64,000 bases of DNA from assembly GCF_902506375.1 (NCBI RefSeq), contig NZ_LR733284.1:2651092-2715091 (forward strand), given 5' to 3'. The stretch's first letter is position 1; each line of letters opens with the position of its first letter. The translations under genes were made by a program, and so were the position numbers. The stretch is from Microbacterium sp. 8M. Lineage in GTDB: Bacteria > Actinomycetota > Actinomycetes > Actinomycetales > Microbacteriaceae. The notes under the pieces are model-generated. The model was not told the DNA's origin. It was given only the letters and a program-made list of their open reading frames with translations, and searched no databases. Below, one piece after another: positions 24,475 through 39,547 of this stretch.

Positions 24475-26382
24475 TTGACCCACGTCCTGCAGCACGTCGT
24501 CTTCCCCCTCGAACGGGATCCCGATCTGCTCCCGCTGTACATGGACCCGGAGACGTGGGCGACGATCGGCGGCGCGTCGGTGCGGGTCAGCGCCCGGGCA
24601 CACATCGGCGATGTGCTGGACCGGCGTTCCGTGCGCGTCGGCCGAGGTCGCAGGGTGTCGTTCGCCTCGTACTTCAACGCCTTCCCCGCCTCGTACTGGC
24701 AGCACTGGACGACGGTGGAGGCCGTCCGGCTGACGGTGCGCACCCGGGGACGAGCGACGATCATCGTGTACCGGTCCAACGGCGACGGCATCCGCCAGCG
24801 CGTCGAGAGCCGGGCGGTCGACGCCGAGGCCGAAGAGTCCTTCGACATCCGTCTCGACCGCTTCAGCGACGGAGGCTGGATCTGGTTCGATCTGGTCGCC
24901 GATCGCGAGGACACGATCCTCGAGAGCGCGCACTGGTCCACCGATCACGAGCCCGTACGGACGGGACTCGCCTCCCTCGGCATCACCACGTACAACAAGC
25001 CGGAGTACTGCATCCGCACGCTCGAGGCGCTCGCCGATGCTCCGGAGGTCATGAAACTCGTCGATCGGATCTTCTTGATCGACCAGGGCGACCAGCGCGT
25101 CGAGTCGCGTTCCGAGTTCCCCGAGATCAGCAGCCGGCTCGGCGACGCGCTGCAGGTCATCGCACAACCGAACCTCGGCGGATCGGGCGGCTTCTCCCGA
25201 GCGATGCTGGAGACTCTGAAGCGACCGGACAGCGGGTTCGTCCAGCTTCTCGACGACGACGTGCGCATCGAGCCGGAAGCGCTGCGCCGCTCCATCACCT
25301 TCGGGCGCTATGCGTCCACCCCCACGCTCGTCGGGGCGCACATGTTCGACCTGCTCGACCGGACCTCGCTGCACGCGTGGGCCGAAGTCGTCGATGAGGG
25401 CCCCTTCATGTGGCGACGGCTCTTCGAGGACGACATGCCGCACGACTTCTCCGAGTCGAACCTGCGTCAGAACCCCACCCTGCACATGCGACTCGACGCC
25501 GGGTACAACGGGTGGTGGATGTGCCTGATCCCGGTCGAGGCGATCCGTGCGGTCGGACTGGCCATGCCGGCATTCATCAAATGGGATGACGCGGAGTTCT
25601 GCCTCCGCGCGGGCGAAGCCGGTTTCCCGACGGTCTCCCTGCCCGGAGTCGCGCTCTGGCATGTCGCGTGGGTCGGCAAGGACGACCAGATCGACTGGCA
25701 GGCCTACTTCCATGCCCGCAATCGCATCGTCGCCGCGCTCTTGCACTCGACGGCTCCGCGCGGAGGCGCGCTGCTGAAGTACAGCAGGCGGGTCGATCTC
25801 AAACACCTGATGTCGATGCAGTACTACCCCACGGCGCTGCGGATGCAGGCGCTGCGCGATGTGCTGTCAGGACCGGAGCACATGCGGCGCGACCTCGCGA
25901 CCGCGATGCCGACTGCGCGGGCCATCGCCGCCGACTATGCCGAGACCGTCGTGCACGTGTCCTCGGAGCGCCCGATCCGCACCGTGCGGGGCCGCCTGGA
26001 GCTGCGCCGCTCTCGCCGACGGGAGTCCGCACCGACCGGTCTGCGACTGCGCTGGATCACGGCATCGAGTCTCGTGTCGCACTGGTTCCGCGCTCCGCGT
26101 CCCCACCACCGGGATCGCCCCGAGGCCGAGTTCGGCAAGAGCGACGCCCAGTGGTGGCGTCTGGCGCGGTACGACAGCGCGCTGGTGAGCACGGCGGATG
26201 GAACCGGGCACACCGTGTACAGACGGGATCGTGCCACGCATCGCGCGCTGATGCGTGAGAGCGCTGAGCTGCATGCAGAGCTGCGGCGCCGCTGGCCGGA
26301 CCTGCAGAAGACCTACCGCGCCCATCTGTCCGAGCTCGTCTCGGCGGATGCCTGGCGCACGACTTTCGAAGGACGCTCATGA
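24475..26382 (+). CDS. glfT2: GlfT2-like galactofuranosyltransferase
   Basis: Processive UDP-Galf-using transferase homologous to mycobacterial GlfT2, which builds galactan on a polyprenyl carrier at the inner membrane face. 635 residues, close to the family length: N-terminal beta-barrel domain (about 1-165), GT2 GT-A domain (about 166-400) with the metal-binding Asp260-Asp261-Asp262 (VQLLDDDVR), the general-base region WDDAEFCLRAGE, the catalytic-site His in LWHVAWVGKDD, and a C-terminal helical domain. The TTG start has a GGAG site nine bases upstream. Overlaps the next GT by ATGA. Gene symbol by homology. Confidence 0.88.
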   Translation: MTHVLQHVVFPLERDPDLLPLYMDPETWATIGGASVRVSARAHIGDVLDRRSVRVGRGRRVSFASYFNAFPASYWQHWTTVEAVRLTVRTRGRATIIVYRSNGDGIRQRVESRAVDAEAEESFDIRLDRFSDGGWIWFDLVADREDTILESAHWSTDHEPVRTGLASLGITTYNKPEYCIRTLEALADAPEVMKLVDRIFLIDQGDQRVESRSEFPEISSRLGDALQVIAQPNLGGSGGFSRAMLETLKRPDSGFVQLLDDDVRIEPEALRRSITFGRYASTPTLVGAHMFDLLDRTSLHAWAEVVDEGPFMWRRLFEDDMPHDFSESNLRQNPTLHMRLDAGYNGWWMCLIPVEAIRAVGLAMPAFIKWDDAEFCLRAGEAGFPTVSLPGVALWHVAWVGKDDQIDWQAYFHARNRIVAALLHSTAPRGGALLKYSRRVDLKHLMSMQYYPTALRMQALRDVLSGPEHMRRDLATAMPTARAIAADYAETVVHVSSERPIRTVRGRLELRRSRRRESAPTGLRLRWITASSLVSHWFRAPRPHHRDRPEAEFGKSDAQWWRLARYDSALVSTADGTGHTVYRRDRATHRALMRESAELHAELRRRWPDLQKTYRAHLSELVSADAWRTTFEGRS

Positions 26383-27341
26383 CGGCACCGACCACCGGGT
26401 TCGATCCCGCCACTGCGACGATCGTCATCGTCACCTTCAACCGCTCGCACCTGCTGCAGGGGCTGCTCGACAGCATCGTGCAGATGGATCCGAAGCCCGG
26501 CAGGGTCGTCATCATCGACAACGCCTCCTCGGACGACACCACGGACGTCGTGGAGTCGTACCGCGACCGCCTCGGCGCGGAGATCGTGTACCGCCGGCTC
26601 GAGACGAACACCGGCGGCTCCGGGGGGTTCAGCGAGGGCATGCGGACCGCGTACGAGCTCGGGTCCGAGTGGATCTGGATGATGGACGACGACGTCGAGG
26701 TGCTCCCCGACGGCCTCGCCCGGATGGGCGCCTGGGCGCCGCGCTTCAAGAGCATCCAGGGCCGCCGCTACGACTACGACGGCAGCGCCTTCTACTGGCA
26801 GTACCGGATCGCCGAGCGGATGGGCATCCCGATCCCGTTCGCGCCGGCCGGCTTCGACGCCACCGGCTTCAAGCCGATGAACAGCGGCTGCTTCGAGGGC
26901 ATGTTCATCCACCGTTCGATCGTGAAGCAGATCGGTCTGCCCGACCCGCGGTTCTTCATCTACTGGGACGACCAGATGTACGGCTGGCTGGCCTCGCGCA
27001 AGACCCAGGCGGTGATCGTCGACGAATTCGTGCTGCGCCGCACGCGCGAGATCAAGCAGTGGGACATGGGCATCCGGCACATGAACGCCTCCAGCAACGC
27101 GTACCGGTACTACATCATGCGCAACCGCGCGTATCTGAAGCAGTACTACCGCGTGCACGGCGTCTACAACCCCGTGCTGTTCGGGCTCGGCACCGCGATG
27201 ACCTTCGCCAAGGAGCTCATCCGCCTCGTGTTCGTCGAGCGCACGGTGCGGGGCACGAGCAACCTGTTCCGCGGCCTGCGTGAGGGCGGCAAGATCGGCC
27301 GAGACCGCAGCTGGCGCCCCATGCCGGCCCTGGAGGACTGA
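26379..27341 (+). CDS. GT2 glycosyltransferase, GlfT1-like galactofuranosyltransferase
   Basis: 320 residues, GT-A fold: VIVTFNRSHLLQGLL at the N-terminus, IIDNASSDDTTD, NTGGSGGFSEGM, and the metal site Asp103-Asp105 (WMMDDDVEVLP). The acceptor half has YWDDQMYGWLASRK and the basic RRTREIKQWDMG. The NTGGSGGF and DDD motifs are shared with GlfT1/GlfT2 and rhamnosyl-primed galactan initiators. Placed directly after glfT2 (ATGA overlap), it would initiate the galactofuran on a rhamnose-bearing lipid. Substrate is inference. Confidence 0.82.
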   Translation: MTAPTTGFDPATATIVIVTFNRSHLLQGLLDSIVQMDPKPGRVVIIDNASSDDTTDVVESYRDRLGAEIVYRRLETNTGGSGGFSEGMRTAYELGSEWIWMMDDDVEVLPDGLARMGAWAPRFKSIQGRRYDYDGSAFYWQYRIAERMGIPIPFAPAGFDATGFKPMNSGCFEGMFIHRSIVKQIGLPDPRFFIYWDDQMYGWLASRKTQAVIVDEFVLRRTREIKQWDMGIRHMNASSNAYRYYIMRNRAYLKQYYRVHGVYNPVLFGLGTAMTFAKELIRLVFVERTVRGTSNLFRGLREGGKIGRDRSWRPMPALED

Positions 27342-28384: not shown

Positions 28385-29080
28385 TCAGGGATGATATGAG
28401 ACGAGGCCGTCGTCGATCCATCGCCTCACGAGTTCCGACTCCAGGGAGATGCGGTGCTCCGCGCCCACCGCGGAGGGATCACCGTAGGCGTGGTTCCATG
28501 ACGTCTGCGTCGCGTCGTGGACGAAGGACAGACCGGCGACATCGAACGCCGCCTCGGGGAAGAGCCGGGTGGCCATCCAGAGCATCACGGTTCCCGTGGT
28601 GGCCCACTGGCCGCTGTCTCTGGGGTCCGCGCCCATCGCTTCGCCCAGCGGCAGGATCACCTCGCGATTCGGCATCGTGATCATGCCCAGATCCTTGGGC
28701 CAGAACTCCGGCAGCTTCGGGTTCTCCCATAACAGCCGACCGGGCTCGATCATGAGGTAGAGCCGTTCGGTGTATCCCTGGAAGAACCATGGCGTGGGAC
28801 GCACTCCGCGGTTGAACACCACGATGTCCGTTCGCCGCCCCACCGAGGGCGGTTCGCCTTCGACATCGGTCCTGAAGCCGTTCACCCGGAAGACGAGATC
28901 GGCCGCGTCGATGACCTCTGCGCGTTCCGCCGACGGAGGCAGCGGCTGGTTCCCGACGACCGCGACCCGCTGCACGCGGCCGTCTCGGGCGTAGGTCTCG
29001 ACCAGCGGACGGAGCCGATCGTAGAACGCCGTCGTGGCAGCGTTCACGCCGTCTTCGACGGGCACCGTTACGCGTCTCAT
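28385..29080 (-). CDS. GT29-like (sialyltransferase-type) glycosyltransferase, putative pseudaminyltransferase
   Basis: 231 residues. Motifs in the order expected for GT29 sialyltransferases: L-like region 38-69 (VAVVGN at 39-44, VIDAADLVFRVN with Asp61, Arg65, Asn67), then VGRRTDIVVFNRG; S-like region 161-185 (TTGTVMLWMATRLFP); motif III-like NHAYGD (196-201); VS-like His209-x4-Glu214 (EHRISLE). No signal or membrane helix, so it would act in the cytoplasm on CMP-activated sugar. It is divergent from pseI with only 64 bases between, so the likely donor is CMP-pseudaminic acid. The motif match is by eye; a distant unrelated fold cannot be excluded. Confidence 0.68.
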   Translation of the reverse strand: MRRVTVPVEDGVNAATTAFYDRLRPLVETYARDGRVQRVAVVGNQPLPPSAERAEVIDAADLVFRVNGFRTDVEGEPPSVGRRTDIVVFNRGVRPTPWFFQGYTERLYLMIEPGRLLWENPKLPEFWPKDLGMITMPNREVILPLGEAMGADPRDSGQWATTGTVMLWMATRLFPEAAFDVAGLSFVHDATQTSWNHAYGDPSAVGAEHRISLESELVRRWIDDGLVSYHP

Positions 29081-29144: not shown

Positions 29145-30206
29145 GTGAGCTCAGATCAGACGGTATCCCTGCAGTCCGCGGAGATCGGCAGCGGAAAGCC
29201 GATCTTCACCATCGCCGAGATGTCCGGCAACCACAACGGCGACCTGGACCGCGCGCTCGCCATCGTGGACGCCGTGGCGGCGACGGGCGCGAGCGCGTTG
29301 AAGATCCAGACCTACACCGCCGACACCCTCACCATCGACTCTGACCTCCCTCCGTTCCGCGTCGCGGGCGATCACGATCTCTGGGGCGGACGCAATCTGT
29401 ACTCGCTCTATCAGGAGGCTCACACGCCGTGGGAGTGGCACGCGGAGATCTTCTCGCGGGCGCGTGCCCAGGGATTGATCCCCTTCTCGACGCCCTTCGA
29501 CCCGACATCGGTCGCGTTCCTGGAGGACCTCGGGGTCGAGCTCTACAAGACCGCGTCGGCTGAGATTGTGGACATTCCGCTCCTGCGCGAAGTCGGCCGC
29601 ACCGGTAAGCCGGTCATCGTGTCGACCGGAATGGCGACGCTCTCCGAGATCGACACCGCCGTCACCGCGCTGCGCGACGCGGGCTGCCCGCACGTGCTGC
29701 TGCTCGCGTGCACTGCTGCCTACCCTGCCGTTCCGGAGGAGGCTCGCCTGGGGAACATCCAGGTTCTGCGCGAGGCGTTCGACGTACCGGTCGGGCTGTC
29801 CGATCACACGCTCGGAATCGGGGTCGCCGTCGCAGCGGCCGCGCTCGGAGCCGTGGCGATCGAGAAGCACGTCACGCTGGACCGCGCCGACGGCGGAGTC
29901 GACGCCGACTTCTCGCTCACCCCGGAGGAGCTCGGAGCGCTTGTGACGGCTGCAGAGCAGGCGCGCGTGGCGGTGGCCAGCGGCACGGCGTTCGGACCGA
30001 CGCCCGAGGAGCGGGCGGTGCTGGCGCTGCGCCGCTCCCTCTACGTCGTCGCCGATGTTCGCGCAGGCGACCGGGTGACCGCGGAGAACGTCCGCTCGAT
30101 CCGCCCCTCGGGGGGCCTGCCCCCTGTGGAGTTCGAGCGCGTCGCGGGACGGACGTTCACGCGCGATGCCGGCCGCGGCACCCCGCTCACCTGGGATCTG
30201 CTCTGA
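29145..30206 (+). CDS. pseI: Pseudaminic acid synthase PseI
   Basis: Condenses 2,4-diacetamido-2,4,6-trideoxy-L-altrose with phosphoenolpyruvate to give pseudaminic acid. 353 residues: NeuB-type TIM barrel (about 15-285) with FTIAEMSGNHNGDLDRA, LKIQTYTADT, YKTASAEIVDIPLLR, STGMAT, GLSDHTLGIGV and EKHVTLDRADGGVD, then a C-terminal SAF antifreeze-like domain (about 295-353). The NLYSLYQEAHTPWEWH stretch and the EMSGNHNG form match PseI rather than NeuB or LegI. It ends 20 bases inside the convergent pseG-pseH gene. Confidence 0.92.
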   Translation: MSSDQTVSLQSAEIGSGKPIFTIAEMSGNHNGDLDRALAIVDAVAATGASALKIQTYTADTLTIDSDLPPFRVAGDHDLWGGRNLYSLYQEAHTPWEWHAEIFSRARAQGLIPFSTPFDPTSVAFLEDLGVELYKTASAEIVDIPLLREVGRTGKPVIVSTGMATLSEIDTAVTALRDAGCPHVLLLACTAAYPAVPEEARLGNIQVLREAFDVPVGLSDHTLGIGVAVAAAALGAVAIEKHVTLDRADGGVDADFSLTPEELGALVTAAEQARVAVASGTAFGPTPEERAVLALRRSLYVVADVRAGDRVTAENVRSIRPSGGLPPVEFERVAGRTFTRDAGRGTPLTWDLL

Positions 30207-31686
30207 GTCCTGGCCCGGCCAGGAACCGCCATTTGGCATAACGCGCGTAGCCGTGAGCATCGGCCGGAAGCTGCGGCAGGTAGCCGGCGCGCGCGAAGAG
30301 CCTTCGTGATGCGGAGTTGTCCTCGCGGATGTCGGCGAGGAACCGCATCGGCGCGGCGTCCGCGATCGCCTCCTCTCCGGCGGCGAGCACGGATGCCGCG
30401 ATGCCCCGGCCGCGCTGCTGCGGGGCCACGGTGATGGAGGCGATCCAGTCCGCCCGGCCATCGCGGTCCCAGCGGACGGTGCCCACGGGCTCGCCGTCGT
30501 CCTCCACGACCAGCAGCGTGCGATCAGGTGATCCCAGACTCGAGCGCAGCCATTCCACGTGAGCCGCGCGATCGATCTCCCCCTGCGTCCGCGAATAGGC
30601 CCGTGTGACGGCATCATTGCGCCATTCCCGCAAGAGGTCGGCGTCAGCCATGCGCGCGCGACGAGCGGTCAAGACCTTCCCGGGCATCTTCCTCACGGGC
30701 ACCTCCAGCAGCTGTTCCCAGGCGGAGACGATCCGCCAGGCGCCGAGGCCGTCGACGCTGCACCGCAGGCGTTCGCGCTGCCTCGCGCGTTCGTCAGGGT
30801 CACGGAGAATCGCCTCCAGCGCGCTCACCGCTGCCGGGGTCGCGATGTCCTTCGGCTCGCCCAGGCCGAGCGCCAGGCCGCCGGCCACGGCTTCGCGGTA
30901 GCCGTCACGCTGGTTGTCGACCACGCACACGAGCGCCATCGGCAGCCCCATGCACGCGTAGTCCCAGACCGAGGTTCCCGCCGCGGTGACGACGAAGTCG
31001 TGCTCGCCCGCCAGCGCCGGAAGATCGTCGACGAAGCCGCGGATCTCGATCCGATGCGGCGACGCGGCAGCAGCGGCCCGCACCTCGGGCCAGCTCGCGG
31101 TGTCCACGACCGTGACATCGATGGACGTTCCCACCGCGCTGAGTGCGGCGATCGCCGCTGCCGTCGCCCCCTGTGGATCCGTGCCGCCCATGACGACGAG
31201 GACGCGGGGTCGGTGCGACGTCACGGCAGCCCGATCGCGCTGACGCAGCACCTGCTGCCGGATCACGGCGGCGTCGATGCCGACGAGCCGAGCGGCCCCG
31301 TCCTCCGCTGTCACCCGGAAGGAGCGCTCCGCACCCAGCGTCCCGTCGATGACCAGGTCGGCAGAACGCGCGCCGAAAGCCCCGTCCTGCATGTTGCTCA
31401 GCAGGTGACGACCGCTGCGCAGATCGGGAAGATCAGCATATGTGTCGAGGTGCAGGACGTCGGCCGCGTCCGAAAGCTCGCCCGGACCGACCGGCCGCGA
31501 CCGCACCACCACGTCAGGCGCAACGCGAGCGGCCGCGGCGAGCGCGGACGGATCGATGTCGCCGACGACGTCCGCCTCCCACCCCCTCGCTCGCGCGACC
31601 TGCGCCAGCGCCAGGCAGCGCATGAGGTGTCCCAGCCCCACTCCTGGGGCGGCGTCGCAGTACAGCACTGCCTTCCGCTTCGCCAT
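30187..31686 (-). CDS. PseG-PseH fusion: UDP-sugar hydrolase and N-acetyltransferase
   Basis: 499 residues combining two pathway steps. Residues about 5-328 are PseG-like: GVGLGHLMRCLALA with His20 at the place of the catalytic His, VVMGGTDPQGATA (165-177), AAGTSVWDYACMGLPM and DNQRDGYREA. It would release UDP from the acetylated sugar. Residues about 338-490 are a GNAT domain with the acetyl-CoA loop QQRGRGIA (424-431) and a typical PseH pattern (ARMADADLLREWRNDAVTR). The start at 31686 has the ribosome site GAGGGGAG; longer frames upstream overlap pseB. Convergent with pseI. Confidence 0.88.
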   Translation of the reverse strand: MAKRKAVLYCDAAPGVGLGHLMRCLALAQVARARGWEADVVGDIDPSALAAAARVAPDVVVRSRPVGPGELSDAADVLHLDTYADLPDLRSGRHLLSNMQDGAFGARSADLVIDGTLGAERSFRVTAEDGAARLVGIDAAVIRQQVLRQRDRAAVTSHRPRVLVVMGGTDPQGATAAAIAALSAVGTSIDVTVVDTASWPEVRAAAAASPHRIEIRGFVDDLPALAGEHDFVVTAAGTSVWDYACMGLPMALVCVVDNQRDGYREAVAGGLALGLGEPKDIATPAAVSALEAILRDPDERARQRERLRCSVDGLGAWRIVSAWEQLLEVPVRKMPGKVLTARRARMADADLLREWRNDAVTRAYSRTQGEIDRAAHVEWLRSSLGSPDRTLLVVEDDGEPVGTVRWDRDGRADWIASITVAPQQRGRGIAASVLAAGEEAIADAAPMRFLADIREDNSASRRLFARAGYLPQLPADAHGYARYAKWRFLAGPGLRADPR

Positions 31687-31749
31687 CGGCTCCCCTCTCC
31701 GCGCGCCTCCCTGCACTCCGCGGACGCGAGCAGGCCGGGCGCCCATCGA

Positions 31750-31756: not shown

Positions 31757-31812
31757 GGCGGATGGGTCGGCTCCCGCGTACCGACGCCGGATTCGATGAG
31801 GAGGATGTCGAC

Positions 31813-32802
31813 GTGTCGATTCTTGAGGGATCCAGCATCCTCATCACCGGTGGGACGGGATCGTTCGGCAAGGCGTTCATCCGGTATGCGCTGGATCGCC
31901 TGAACCCGCGTCGGCTCGTGATCTTCTCGCGGGACGAACTGAAGCAGTACGAGGTTCGTCAGCTCTTCGGCAACGACCCGCGCCTGCGGTGGTTCATCGG
32001 CGACATCCGTGACGAGCGGCGTCTGTCGCGGGCCCTGCACGGCGTCGACTACGTGGTGCACGCGGCGGCTCTGAAGCAGGTCGACACGGCCGAGTACAAC
32101 CCGTTCGAGTTCGTGAAGACGAACGTCCTCGGCAGTCAGAACGTGATCGAGGCGTCGATCGACGCGGGGGTGAAGAAGGTCGTCGCCCTCTCGACCGACA
32201 AAGCATCCAGCCCGATCAACCTGTACGGTGCCACGAAGCTCACCGCGGACAAGCTGTTCATTACCGGGAACCACTACGCCGCCGCGTACGAGACCCGCTT
32301 CGCGGTCGTCCGCTACGGGAACGTGATGGGTTCGCGGGGCTCGGTGATCCCGTTCTTCCGCCGGCTGGGCGAGGAGGGCAAGCCCCTGCCGATCACCGAT
32401 CTGCGCTGCACACGGTTCTTCATCACGCTGCCGGAGGCGGTGCAGATGGTCGTGGAGACGTTCGAGTTCATGCAGGGCGGCGAGCTGCTGGTGCCGCGCA
32501 TCCCGTCCATGAAGGTCACCGACCTCGCGCACGCCGTCGTCCCCGGCGCCGAGCTCGTCGACGTGGGTCTGCGTCCGGGCGAGAAGCTGCACGAGGAGAT
32601 GATCAGCCCGGAGGAGGGCCGCCGCGCGGTGACCATCCAGGACGGGAAGTACTACATCATCCAGCCCGACCTCGCATCGTGGGGGTACCAGACGCCGGCG
32701 GGATCCGTGCCCGTGCCGGAAGGGTTCGCGTATCGCTCGGACGGGAACGATCAGTGGTACACACGCGATGAGATCGCGGCGATCATCGACGCGGGTCTGT
32801 GA
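31813..32802 (+). CDS. pseB: UDP-GlcNAc 4,6-dehydratase (5-epimerising) PseB
   Basis: First step of the pathway: UDP-GlcNAc to UDP-2-acetamido-2,6-dideoxy-L-arabino-4-hexulose. 329 residues, cytosolic SDR enzyme of the short FlaA1/PseB class: NAD(P) motif GGTGSFG (13-19), Asp129-Lys130 in STDKASSP, Tyr138-x3-Lys142 (YGATK). The GTG at 31813 follows a strong GAGGAGG (31798-31804). An in-frame ATG at 31762 near the -10 box is the alternative and would add 17 residues. First gene of the coupled pseB-pseC-pseF operon. Confidence 0.93.
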   Translation: MSILEGSSILITGGTGSFGKAFIRYALDRLNPRRLVIFSRDELKQYEVRQLFGNDPRLRWFIGDIRDERRLSRALHGVDYVVHAAALKQVDTAEYNPFEFVKTNVLGSQNVIEASIDAGVKKVVALSTDKASSPINLYGATKLTADKLFITGNHYAAAYETRFAVVRYGNVMGSRGSVIPFFRRLGEEGKPLPITDLRCTRFFITLPEAVQMVVETFEFMQGGELLVPRIPSMKVTDLAHAVVPGAELVDVGLRPGEKLHEEMISPEEGRRAVTIQDGKYYIIQPDLASWGYQTPAGSVPVPEGFAYRSDGNDQWYTRDEIAAIIDAGL

Positions 32803-33929
32803 CGATGCTCCCCTACGGACGCCAGTCGATCTCCGAAGACGACATCGCGGCGGTCGCGGCGATCCTCCGCGGCGACTGGCTGACCACGGGACCGGCTGTC
32901 GCCGCGTTCGAAGCCGAGATCGGCCGGCTCGCGGGCGGGCACCGCGCGGTTTCCGCGACCTCGGGCACCGCAGCGCTGCACATGGCCTACGCCGCAGCAG
33001 GCGTCGGACCGGGCGACGAGGTGATCTCCACGCCCATGACGTTCGTGGCGACCACGGCGATGGCATCACTGCTCGGTGCGAAGATCGTGTTCGCCGATGT
33101 CGAGGAGGACACCGCCCTCATCGACCCCGCCGCGGTCGACACGCTGGCCTCCGACCGCACCAAGGTGATCGCCGCCGTCGACTACGCCGGCTCGCCCGCC
33201 GACTACGACGCCCTCGGAAGCATCGCAGGCAGGGTGGGCGCCCTGACCCTCGACGACGCGGCGCATTCGATCGGCAGCACATACAAAGGACGCCCGGTCG
33301 GCGACCTCGCCGACCTCACCACGTTCTCGTTCTTCCCCACGAAGAACCTGACCACCGGGGAGGGCGGCGCGGTCGTCGCCAAGGATCCGGCGCTGGCGCA
33401 GCGCGCGCACGAGTTCCACTTCATCGGCCTCGTCCGCGACCGGGAGCGGTTCCAGATCACCACCGAGGGGCCCTGGCACCAGGAGGTGCACGAGTTCGGC
33501 GTGAACTACCGCCTCACAGACATCGCCAGCGCCCTCGGCCTGGCGCAGCTGCAGCGACTCGAGCAGTTCAAATCCCGACGGGCGGAGATCACCCGGCGTT
33601 ACAACGAGGCGCTGGCAGGACTCGACGGCGTCCGCATCCCGGTGCAGCGGGACGACGTCGACCCGATCCGCCACCTCTATCCCGTGCGCATCCTCGACGG
33701 CCGGCGGCGCGAAGTGTTCGAGAAGATGCGGGCCGATGGCATCGGCGTGCAGGTCAACTACATGCCCGTGTACTGGCATCCCGTCTACGCGAACGCCGGT
33801 TATCAGCGCGGGCTGTGCCCGAACGCGGAGAGGTTCTACGCCGAGGAGCTCTCCCTGCCGATCTTCCCCGACCTCACCGACGCGCAGGTCGACCAGGTCG
33901 TCGAGGTGCTCGCCCGGGCCCTGCGATGA
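32799..33929 (+). CDS. pseC: UDP-4-amino-4,6-dideoxy-AltNAc transaminase PseC
   Basis: PLP-dependent aminotransferase of the DegT/DnrJ/EryC1 family that aminates the PseB product at C4. 376 residues, typical length: SATSGTAALHMAY (51-64), PMTFVATTAMAS, the Asp of LDDAAHSIGS, Schiff-base Lys182 in FFPTKNLTTGEGG, and NYRLTDIASALGLAQL. The start overlaps the pseB stop (GTGA), with an ATG two codons later as an equal option. Sits between pseB and pseF as in known pseudaminic acid clusters. Confidence 0.92.
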   Translation: MTMLPYGRQSISEDDIAAVAAILRGDWLTTGPAVAAFEAEIGRLAGGHRAVSATSGTAALHMAYAAAGVGPGDEVISTPMTFVATTAMASLLGAKIVFADVEEDTALIDPAAVDTLASDRTKVIAAVDYAGSPADYDALGSIAGRVGALTLDDAAHSIGSTYKGRPVGDLADLTTFSFFPTKNLTTGEGGAVVAKDPALAQRAHEFHFIGLVRDRERFQITTEGPWHQEVHEFGVNYRLTDIASALGLAQLQRLEQFKSRRAEITRRYNEALAGLDGVRIPVQRDDVDPIRHLYPVRILDGRRREVFEKMRADGIGVQVNYMPVYWHPVYANAGYQRGLCPNAERFYAEELSLPIFPDLTDAQVDQVVEVLARALR

Positions 33930-34657
33930 GCCGCGTCGGGATCATCACCCAAGCGCGGATGACGAGCACCCGCCTCCCCGGGAAGGTCCTCCTTCCCGCT
34001 GGCGGGAAGCCGATGCTCGCTCACCACCTCGAACGGCTCGCCGCTGTCGGCGCACCGCTCATCGTGGCGACCACGACCAACTCCGCCGACGACCCGCTCG
34101 TCGAGATCGCCGGCTCTCTCGACGCCGCCGTGTTCCGCGGGAGCGAGCATGACGTGCTCTCGCGCTACACCGGCGCCGCGACCGCCGCGAACATCGATGT
34201 CGTCGTGCGCGTCACCTCCGACTGCCCGCTCATCGACCCGTCTCTCATCCGCCGCGGGATCGACCGGTACCTGGCGCTGGACGACCCCTACGCACACGTG
34301 TCGAACGTGATCGAACGCAGTTACCCCCGCGGATTCGACTTCGAAGTGTTCTCCGCTGAAGCCCTGCGCGACGCCGACGCACACGCGACGGCAGACGCGG
34401 ACCGCGAACATGTGACGCCCTACCTCTACGCGAACCGATCAGGTCGAGCGCGACTCGAACCGATCATCCGCGACGAAGACGCATCCCGCTACCGCGTGAC
34501 CCTCGACACGCACGACGACCTGGACCTTCTCACCGCCCTCATCGAGCAGCACGACGCGGCCCACAAGGACGCCGAAGGAATCATCGCGATCCTCGACCGG
34601 CACCCCGCACTCGCCGCTATCAACGCACACGTCGAGCAGAAGAAACTCGACGAATAG
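33926..34657 (+). CDS. pseF: CMP-pseudaminic acid synthetase-like cytidylyltransferase (PseF/SpsF type)
   Basis: Activates pseudaminic acid with CTP. 243 residues, GT-A-like nucleotidyltransferase: N-terminal IITQARMTSTRLPGKVL, GSEHDVLSRY, VVVRVTSDCPLIDP (metal/nucleotide-binding Asp) and PRGFDFEVFSAEAL. This is the SpsF-like branch used as PseF in many clusters rather than the NeuA branch. Starts at an ATGA overlap with pseC, making three coupled genes. The substrate assignment rests on gene context. Confidence 0.86.
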   Translation: MSRVGIITQARMTSTRLPGKVLLPAGGKPMLAHHLERLAAVGAPLIVATTTNSADDPLVEIAGSLDAAVFRGSEHDVLSRYTGAATAANIDVVVRVTSDCPLIDPSLIRRGIDRYLALDDPYAHVSNVIERSYPRGFDFEVFSAEALRDADAHATADADREHVTPYLYANRSGRARLEPIIRDEDASRYRVTLDTHDDLDLLTALIEQHDAAHKDAEGIIAILDRHPALAAINAHVEQKKLDE

Positions 34658-34664
34658 CCGGGGT

Positions 34665-35405
34665 TCAGGAGTTGTCGGCGTTGTAGCGGTCCAGCACCTC
34701 GCCGATGCCGGCGTCGAGCACGAGCCCGCCCTTGTCCAGGTACAGACCGCGCGTGCAGAACCGGCGCAGATCCTTCTCGTTGTGCGACACGAAGAACAGC
34801 GTGCGCCCGTCGGCCAGCAGCTCGTCGATCCGCCGGTAGCACTTGTCGCGGAAGGCCTTGTCCCCCACGGCGAGCACCTCGTCCACGAGCAGGATCGGCT
34901 CCTCGAGCTGCGAAACCACCGAGAACGCCAGACGCACCTTCATGCCGTTGGAGAGGTGCTTGTAGGGAGTGTCCTGGAACTTCTCCAGCTCCGCGAACGC
35001 GATGATGTCGTCGTAGCGCGCCGAGACCTCCGCACGGCCCATGCCGTGCAGCCCCGCGGTCAGCCGCACGTTCTCGCGGACGGTGAGGTCGCCGACGAAT
35101 CCGCCGGTGAGCTCGATGAGCGGCGCCACGCCGCCGTGCACGCGGACGTGCCCCTCATCCGGCAGCAGGACTCCGGCGACGAGCTTGAGCAGGGTCGACT
35201 TGCCCTGGCCGTTGCGGCCGACGACGCCGATCGCCTCGCCGTGATGGACGCGGAACGACACCTTCCGCAGCGCCCAGAACTCCCCCGGGCGGTTGCGCCG
35301 GCTCTTGCCGCCGAAGAGGTCCTTGAAGCTGCGACGTCCGCGCCGTCCCAGCCGGAAACGCACGCCGAGTCCGTCGACCTCGATCGCAGGGTGCTCCTCG
35401 GCCAT
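34665..35405 (-). CDS. wzt: Polysaccharide ABC exporter, ATP-binding subunit (Wzt/RfbE-like)
   Basis: 246 residues: Walker A GVVGRNGQGKSTLL, signature LSNGMKVRLAFSVV, Walker B ILLVDEVLAVGD and the H-loop FVSHNEKDL. Energises export of a lipid-linked polymer with the partner permease next to it (TGATG junction). It lacks the C-terminal carbohydrate-binding domain seen in some O-antigen Wzt proteins, so there is no sign of chain-end recognition. Near glf and the Glf transferases, it is the likely galactan-type exporter (compare mycobacterial Rv3781). The start is set by the overlap; the long frame to 36143 is wrong. Confidence 0.9.
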   Translation of the reverse strand: MAEEHPAIEVDGLGVRFRLGRRGRRSFKDLFGGKSRRNRPGEFWALRKVSFRVHHGEAIGVVGRNGQGKSTLLKLVAGVLLPDEGHVRVHGGVAPLIELTGGFVGDLTVRENVRLTAGLHGMGRAEVSARYDDIIAFAELEKFQDTPYKHLSNGMKVRLAFSVVSQLEEPILLVDEVLAVGDKAFRDKCYRRIDELLADGRTLFFVSHNEKDLRRFCTRGLYLDKGGLVLDAGIGEVLDRYNADNS

Positions 35406-36199
35406 CACAGCTCCTTCAGCACATCGCGCTCGAGCGAGCGGAAGGTGAACAGTCCGAGAGCGAGGAACACCAGGGTGACGGCGGCGCCGATGATCACCGG
35501 CTCCGGCTGCCACTGCCCCGGGAACAGGCCGACGCGGTACAGCGTGAAGATGCCGGACAGCGGGTTGAGCGCGCCGAGGATGTGCAGCTGGTGCGGAAGG
35601 TCCTTGAAGCCGTAGATGACCGGCGAGACGTAGAACAGCGCACGCAGGATGAGCGCCGTGGTGCGCTCGAGATCCGTCCACAGCACGCACAGCGGCGCGA
35701 TCAGCAGACCGAGCCCGATCAGCAGCACGGTCTGCCAGAGCATCGCGACCGGGAACAGCAGCAGCGACCAGTTCGCCTGGGCGCCGGCGAAGACGGCGAA
35801 CAGGATCAGCACCGGGATCGCGAACGTGAACTCCAGCCCTTTGGTGAGGATGACGCGCACGACCCAGATCGACCGCGGGATCGCTGTGGAGCGGATCAGG
35901 CGGGCGTCCTTCTTGAAGGCGCGGGTGAAGTCGCCGACCGCCGTGTTGAACCACACCCAGGGCAGCAGCGCCGTGATGAGGAACACGATGTACGGCTGCT
36001 CGCCGACGTGCCCGCGGTGGAACACCTGAGTGAACACGAACCAGTAGATCGCGCTCATGACGAGCGGATCCAGCACCGACCACAGATAGCCGAGCACGCT
36101 CGTCGCGTAGCGGACCCGCAGGTCGCGGGCCGACAGCAGCCACAGCGAATGGAAGTAGCGCCGGGAGATCCCTCCGCCGCGCACCTCGGTCACCGTCAC
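35405..36199 (-). CDS. wzm: Polysaccharide ABC exporter, permease (Wzm/RfbD-like)
   Basis: 264 residues, six predicted helices in the ABC-2 (TagG/RfbD) arrangement: RDLRVRYATSVLGYLWSVLDPL coupling region at the N-terminus, then PYIVFLITALLPWVWFNTAVGDFTRAFK and further helices to the C-terminal LFTFRSLER. Moves a polyprenyl-linked glycan across the membrane with the Wzt subunit. The GTG start has TAGGAT exactly six bases upstream, a leaderless arrangement, so the pair has its own promoter and is not merely read through from glf. Confidence 0.9.
   Translation of the reverse strand: MTVTEVRGGGISRRYFHSLWLLSARDLRVRYATSVLGYLWSVLDPLVMSAIYWFVFTQVFHRGHVGEQPYIVFLITALLPWVWFNTAVGDFTRAFKKDARLIRSTAIPRSIWVVRVILTKGLEFTFAIPVLILFAVFAGAQANWSLLLFPVAMLWQTVLLIGLGLLIAPLCVLWTDLERTTALILRALFYVSPVIYGFKDLPHQLHILGALNPLSGIFTLYRVGLFPGQWQPEPVIIGAAVTLVFLALGLFTFRSLERDVLKEL

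Positions 36200-36248: not shown

Positions 36249-39547
<3,299 letters not shown>

Follow-up and report, generated by a model that had tools for sequence, protein, structure and literature searches.

To our knowledge, few transferases of pseudaminic acid (Pse) are known. Pse transfer by promiscuous sialyltransferases is reportedly the subject of Flack et al. 2020, and GT118 is said to be that of Walklett et al. 2024. The Pse transferases on record in extracts from two further papers are the retaining GT118 enzyme KpsS1 (PMC12887879) and the Maf transferases of flagellin (PMC13317340). A preliminary description of the locus treated here had called GT29 mostly eukaryotic, which understates its bacterial membership, given that 23 GT29-like sequences from alpha-, gamma- and epsilon-Proteobacteria had been described by sequence in 2018, according to extracts from PMC5811610. 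Among the matches listed in a search of open-access titles and abstracts, none connects GT29 either with the transfer of Pse or with actinobacterial carriers; the text of two metagenome papers contains 'GT29' as well as 'actinobacteria'. As far as this literature goes, the actinobacterial GT29 clade described below, with its links to Pse synthesis and to a coiled-coil partner, appears to be new.

The locus in the window

The window, by which we mean the whole stretch of 64,000 nucleotides analysed from Microbacterium sp. 8M, includes the following features around the GT29 gene.

24475 to 27341, plus strand: GlfT2-like galactofuranosyltransferase (24475-26382) and GlfT1-like GT2 (26379-27341); PF19320, PF17994
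27944 to 28333, minus strand: coiled-coil partner (129 aa), the next gene downstream of GT29
28385 to 29080, minus strand: GT29 (sialyltransferase-family) glycosyltransferase, ATG start, 231 aa
29145 to 30206, plus strand: PseI, pseudaminic acid synthase (TIGR03586 417.7 bits, cut-off 340.25)
30187 to 31701, minus strand: one ORF comprising a PseG-like hydrolase and a PseH-like GNAT acetyltransferase; start uncertain
31762 to 32802, plus strand: PseB (TIGR03589 464 bits, cut-off 407.75)
32799 to 33929, plus strand: PseC-like aminotransferase (TIGR03588 412.7 bits, just below the cut-off of 423.5)
33938 to 34657, plus strand: CMP-sugar synthase in the PseF position (CTP_transf_3; PF02348, E 5.3e-25), start approximate
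34665 to 36199, minus strand: ABC exporter pair in the style of Wzt (34665-35456) and Wzm (35405-36199); PF00005 E 3.5e-20, PF01061 E 3.9e-13
36249 to 37382, minus strand: Glf, UDP-galactopyranose mutase, source of UDP-galactofuranose (PF03275, E 4.3e-84)

The PseI gene is divergent from the GT29 gene, and the 64-base gap between them given in the preliminary description is correct when measured from start codon to start codon. The top PDB match of PseI is 8h2c, 'Pseudaminic acid synthase' (E 4e-72), and PseI itself is the one match to a PseI/NeuB-type synthase in its own genome at E <= 0.001. Across the six-step Pse pathway (PseB, C, H, G, I, F), PseI and PseB score above their cut-offs and PseC just under, and PseG, PseH and a PseF-like protein are recognisable, each under its equivalog cut-off. 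The PseG part reaches 104.4 bits against TIGR03590 (cut-off 153.55), with its best stretch at residues 113-265, and the PseH part contains a GNAT domain (PF00583, residues 374-474) and reaches 29.7 bits against TIGR03585 (cut-off 93.1). The PseF-like protein matches PDB entry 6oew, 'Cytidylyltransferase' (E 6.4e-40), and scores 14.9 against the PseF model TIGR03584, whose cut-off is 205.7. Since PseC, PseG, PseH and the PseF-like protein all fall under curated cut-offs, the exact sugar may be a variant of Pse.

We refer to loci by L handles and to genomes by G handles; the two sets overlap, with L002/G433, L008/G305 and L005/G414 giving identical protein, and genes in unannotated loci are crude ORF picks. 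A side observation concerns the minus-strand ORF at 30187-31701, in which PseG and PseH are apparently fused, and which as a query aligns nearly end to end in L002 and L004-L007.

The preliminary description had also placed the gene in a Gram-positive surface-glycan locus, and this is supported by the ABC exporter, the UDP-galactopyranose mutase and the GlfT-like genes, the window neighbours of the GT29 gene being concerned with polymer export, Glf and Wzy-like functions. The longer ORF of Glf reaches 330.9 bits against TIGR00031 (cut-off 303.75), and the GlfT1-like protein scores 71.3 bits against the GlfT1 model NF050113, below its cut-off of 330. Glf, GT2, Wzm and Wzt occur near GT29 in L002, L004-L008 and the window, and the distant G241 locus has Glf, GlfT2, Wzm and Wzt. 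A GlfT2 match is found in L006 and L007 and in none of L002-L005 or L008; within 8 kb, L009 and L010 yield no Glf, Wzm or Wzt match. Because GlfT2 is inconstant and L009 and L010 lack Glf, Wzm and Wzt matches over that distance, the acceptor is weakly supported and forms the weakest step of the mechanism proposed below.

Family assignment and predicted fold

The ORF coordinates (28385-29080, minus strand) and the motif positions that had been read by eye are correct: VVGN lies at residue 41, IDAADLVFRVN at 57, TTGTVMLW at 161, NHAYGD at 196 and HRISLE at 209. In its own genome the ORF is matched by itself alone, and its Microbacterium relatives, L002-L009, are 64-76% identical to it. All four sialylmotif regions can be located computationally, with the help of an alignment of 13 GT29 homologs (A1). 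Sialylmotif L coincides with the PF00777 match (residues 31-91) and with the matches of the A1 profile to ST8Sia3 (38-93) and ST6Gal1 (36-124). Sialylmotif S, which lies outside the reach of any profile match on its own, is present as T161-T162-G163 plus G183 (pattern S/T-T-G ... G-F/L-S); these four residues are invariant in A1, as are N44 and N67. In the motif III region W195-x-H197 and Y199 are conserved, and the residue after H197 is alanine where the consensus H-Y-[YFWH]-x has tyrosine. Sialylmotif VS is H209-R-I-S-L-E214 (HxxxxE), of which H and E are retained in 12 of the 13 A1 rows, the thirteenth (L044) ending before the motif at a contig end, so that its aligned H is an artefact.

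The Pfam family PF00777 (Glyco_transf_29) matches the 231-aa protein at 30.4 bits, above the curated cut-off of 23 (E 3.4e-7), over residues 31-91 only, which is the L-motif region; it also matches 13/13 A1 members at E <= 1 (best 2.6e-9). No NCBIfam family is among the matches listed at E <= 0.1. A PDB search with the single sequence has ST8Sia3 as its best match (E 0.051) and three sialyltransferase molecules among five listed chains, and a search with the A1 profile puts ST8Sia3 on top at E 0.0046, unrelated chains starting at E 0.14. These sequence matches to GT29 proteins in the PDB are weak, and the fold match is much clearer. An AlphaFold (AF2) model built from the 13 A1 homologs has a mean pLDDT of 83.4 and a pTM of 0.85, and all 30 Foldseek matches of this model in the PDB at E <= 0.001 are GT29 sialyltransferases. 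In VIA-align the best entry is 2wml (ST3Gal1; Z 16.0, rmsd 3.1, 194 residues aligned), and the 14 GT29 entries shown range from Z 12.1 to 16.0 and cover nearly the whole model; next come archaeal HPPK (Z 10.0 and 9.9) and the GT42 enzyme CstII (Z 9.8). GT42, which shares the fold, is not one of the two Pfam families listed at E <= 1, and neither GT52 nor GT80 appears among the structural matches shown by Foldseek or VIA-align. The protein is thus predicted, on this model, to have the GT-A variant 2 Rossmann-type fold of GT29. Both the profile search and the comparison of folds therefore uphold the assignment to GT29, and a chance resemblance of motifs is ruled out by the Pfam profile match together with the fold match.

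The C-terminal ends pair in VIA-align (model residue 231 with residue 341 of 2wml), and counting back from them places H209 on position 319 of 2wml, which we take to be the catalytic base of porcine ST3Gal1. H209 is the presumed catalytic base. For the human counterparts, extracts from PMC6884586 give H316 as base (HxxxxE), H299 as acid and list W297, and also state that a change of the motif III tyrosine, Y300, to alanine inactivates the enzyme. The spacing of human W297-x-H299 and H316xxxxE321 is reproduced by W195-x-H197 and H209xxxxE214. The features of Golgi-type eukaryotic GT29 proteins, namely an N-terminal anchor and a disulphide between the L and S motifs, are absent: the protein has no cysteine and no predicted membrane span (maximum 19-residue Kyte-Doolittle value 0.97). 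Because it lacks both cysteines and a membrane anchor, we do not file it in the eukaryotic Golgi-type subgroup.

Linkage to pseudaminic acid genes, partner gene and distribution

In each of the 8 actinobacterial loci that include both flanks (L002 and L004-L010), ORFs for PseB, PseC, PseF-like, PseGH and PseI lie near the GT29 gene, those for PseF and PseGH being matched only in part in L008; gene order and orientation differ in L008, L009 and L010. PseB, PseC and PseI also adjoin GT29 in L056, and in L003 a contig end cuts the locus and leaves only part of PseI visible. In L011, a distant match in Rhizobium (37% over 79 residues), the 16 kb of the locus contain no pse gene.

Among 149 genomes of the genus, the GT29 gene is found in 10, and PseI over the cut-off in 11, plus one cut at a contig end. 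The curated PseI cut-off was applied because matches below it are common, PseI/NeuB-type matches of that kind being found at E <= 0.001 in 94/149 genus genomes and 8/14 control genomes; the 82 genus genomes that have only such matches include no GT29 gene. All ten genomes with GT29 carry PseI on the same contig (nine over the cut-off, with G318 cut by the contig end), as against 2/139 of those without GT29 (G296 and G341), giving a Fisher p-value of 6e-14, or 7e-12 if G318 is counted as negative, both values ignoring phylogeny. In the wider class, for which the A1 count and the PseI count are taken as one draw of 394 genomes, four have strong A1 matches, 20 have PseI over the cut-off and three have both: G000, G119 (on different contigs) and G532 (less than 1 kb apart). 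Two of these, G000 and G119, had supplied rows to A1, and both A1 and the partner alignment described below include rows from several genomes later counted as positive; the independent new finds of the class search are G532, G241 and, weakly, G494, whose 19.5 bits in a 663-aa frame were excluded from the strong count. PseI occurs without this GT29 in 17 of the 20 PseI-positive class genomes and in the two genus genomes named above, and the pathway therefore does not require the GT29 gene. Linkage of the gene to a Pse pathway, as proposed in the preliminary description, is supported, and is strong but genetic only.

One genome departs from this pattern. G241 has the pair formed by GT29 and its partner (238.8 bits), and its assembly contains no PseI/NeuB-type synthase at E <= 0.001. 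Just downstream, the pair is followed by a CMP-sugar synthase gene that the contig end truncates. Separately, we observe that two contigs of G241 each stop within the beginning of a CMP-sugar synthase gene (L057:11624-11922 and L066:7028-7376), and that these ends are 97% identical over 311 bases, which suggests that the gene is duplicated and so breaks the assembly.

The coiled-coil gene, which starts 51 bases beyond the GT29 gene, is a new observation that the preliminary description missed. A homolog lies directly downstream of GT29 on the same strand in 12/12 loci examined. In an alignment of these homologs (A2) they diverge to 32% identity, and a C-terminal [YF]EERLxRLE is conserved. AF2 predicts two long helices (2-88 and 93-128; pLDDT 89.5, pTM 0.38), which would have little fixed tertiary arrangement. 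The protein in the window matches no Pfam family at E <= 0.01 (best E 0.018), and the libraries tried gave scattered weak coiled-coil matches only and no convincing family. When 80 genomes were searched with the A2 profile, 12 gave strong matches (E <= 3e-32), every one of them with this GT29, and in a thirteenth GT29 genome, G119, the contig is cut inside the GT29 gene. The other 67 genomes, of which 19 have PseI but no such GT29 and six have other GT29-like matches, gave no strong match and two weak ones (E 4e-4 and 9e-4). The set of positives shares members with the rows of A2; the negatives are independent of it. The pairing of the two genes is thus constant by computation.

Genome-wide searches with PF00777 at E <= 0.001 find matches in at least 7/296 Actinobacteria and in at least 1/337 genomes of the class to which the L011 Rhizobium genome belongs. 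These counts are lower bounds, because the same search missed 3/3 of the genomes of L009-L011; the L009 and L010 proteins do match PF00777 when scanned singly at E <= 1. Apart from the window's genome, the six Actinobacteria found with PF00777 matches all carry a NeuB-family gene, itself common (9/14 controls), and in four of the six this gene shares a contig with the GT29 match, at distances of about 5, 9, 13 and 18 kb. A second type of GT29 protein was observed in the genus, in G138 (L038:9034-11484), as an 817-aa protein with GT29 and GT4-type domains; its gene is about 5 kb from a NeuB-family gene, and the alignment of its GT29 domain with A1 spans all four motif regions (E 5e-9, 179 columns).

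As to origin, neither 72,556 plasmid records nor 50,697 phage records gave a tblastn match to the GT29 protein at E <= 0.001, and when viral contigs were scanned with A1, using two peptide patterns and 35 candidate stretches, no relative turned up. A recent origin from phages or plasmids is not supported by these empty searches. BFVD contains GT29-like folds in 16 viral or phage matches at E <= 0.001, one of them annotated as family 29 from a Caudovirales phage, and the gene may have an old viral link.

Several other proteins near pse or NeuB-family genes were observed. In G341, which has PseI without GT29, a WbsX glycosyltransferase and a 434-aa protein adjoin the pse genes; the latter (L037:3377-4678) is a candidate for another Pse-handling enzyme and has no Pfam or NCBIfam match at E <= 0.01 and no PDB match at E <= 1. 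In G296, the other such genome, a DUF6541 protein, an ABC2 membrane protein and an LGFP-repeat protein surround PseI. Similar-looking proteins with a common VESP[VL]QLL start occur near NeuB-family genes in G123 (L039:2732-3793) and G248 (L042:13849-14874); they have no Pfam or NCBIfam match and are possibly another transferase of ulosonic acids.

Proposed mechanism, alternatives and comparison with known systems

We consider it probable that the protein is a soluble, inverting CMP-Pse transferase that acts with its coiled-coil partner on an ABC-exported surface glycan. Because the GT29 gene adjoins the pse genes and the coiled-coil gene, attachment of Pse to a cell-surface polysaccharide is the probable outcome, and we infer the donor, acceptor, stereochemistry and role of the partner as follows. 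The donor would most likely be CMP-pseudaminic acid, or an N-acyl variant, supplied by the neighbouring pse genes, and transfer would proceed in one displacement step that inverts the anomeric centre, as in GT29, with H209 of HxxxxE as putative base and H197 as putative acid. Pse would pass in the cytoplasm from CMP-Pse to a lipid-linked glycan, prior to export; the acceptor is most likely a surface glycan that contains galactofuranose and is assembled on the inner face of the membrane, and the Wzm/Wzt-type pair would export this glycan with Pse as a side group or cap. As a dedicated partner, the coiled-coil protein may tether, oligomerise or position the GT29 enzyme on its acceptor. More tentatively, and with considerable doubt, we suggest that the actinobacterial GT29 is a dedicated inverting pseudaminyltransferase in an obligate pair with a coiled-coil rod, which would dock it at the membrane and set where, or at what chain length, Pse caps a galactofuranose-rich polymer before ABC export. 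WbdD is a coiled-coil ruler of O-antigen caps, and by analogy the logic of such a rod would resemble that of WbdD-type rulers, independently of retaining GT118 and of Maf.

An alternative that we regard as unlikely is that Pse is transferred from CMP-Pse to a protein acceptor (flagellin or another glycoprotein), the coiled-coil protein being an acceptor adaptor comparable to GlfM for Maf-2. A constant small coiled-coil gene would suit this role and, according to extracts from PMC13317340, flagellin receives nonulosonic acids from known Maf transferases, of which Maf-2 depends on the co-encoded GlfM; however, the approximately 19 window ORFs scanned around the GT29 gene include no flagellin or Maf, and those near it serve polymer export or are Glf and Wzy-like genes. 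It is also improbable, somewhat below the protein acceptor in our estimation, that the pse neighbourhood is incidental and that the enzyme uses another CMP-ulosonate (Kdo, legionaminic or sialic acid). PseI accompanies the GT29 gene in all ten genus genomes that have it, the association persists through several gene orders, and the window's own genome has no second PseI/NeuB-type synthase match at E <= 0.001, whereas the points in favour of another ulosonate are the G241 pair without detectable PseI, the PseF-like protein, whose scores are better with the models of Kdo cytidylyltransferase than with that of PseF (under all their cut-offs), and a proposal, in extracts from PMC5811610, that plant GT29 shifted to Kdo transfer. 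Finally, it is very improbable that the GT29 fold is kept without transferase activity (in a regulatory or binding role), or that the protein belongs to another Rossmann-type family such as MptE-like HPPK, for although archaeal HPPK chains reach Z 10.0 and alanine replaces the motif III tyrosine, the GT29 entries shown all exceed HPPK and GT42, and N44, N67, T161, T162 and G163 are invariant in A1, with H209 present in the 12 rows that reach it.

If the enzyme is indeed a CMP-Pse transferase of surface glycans, the family behind animal sialylation would also serve pseudaminic acid in Gram-positive bacteria, a compact soluble GT29 would be available as an inverting catalyst for Pse glycosides, and the GT29 gene would mark actinobacterial surface glycans that bear Pse. 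The coiled-coil partner renders the mechanism testable.

With the animal GT29 enzymes (ST3Gal1, ST6GalNAc2, ST8Sia3, ST6Gal1) it has in common the fold (Z 12.1-16.0), the motif order and the HxxxxE base, and it differs in being shorter, in having no cysteines or anchor, in its motif III (HAY rather than HY[YFWH]) and in its setting in a bacterial pse locus. The GT42 enzyme CstII has a related fold at a Z of 9.8, well below the GT29 entries. Maf belongs to a different protein family than GT29, and differs further from the window protein in that its acceptor is a protein, flagellin. Maf transferases also carry Pse and other nonulosonic acids, Maf-2 with the small co-encoded GlfM (extracts from PMC13317340). 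The proteobacterial GT29 proteins share with ours a bacterial host, sialylmotifs L, S and VS, a motif III region (in ours with alanine for the consensus tyrosine), and the absence of a transmembrane segment and of conserved cysteines; the extracts from PMC5811610 mention no Pse locus or coiled-coil partner, and its main text is without the words 'actinobacteria' or 'gram-positive'. KpsS1, the GT118 pseudaminyltransferase of Acinetobacter baumannii, transfers Pse in the synthesis of a surface polysaccharide (capsule), but is retaining and related to KpsC and WbbB rather than to GT29 (extracts from PMC12887879), and compared with it a GT29 Pse enzyme would amount to an independent and presumably inverting solution.
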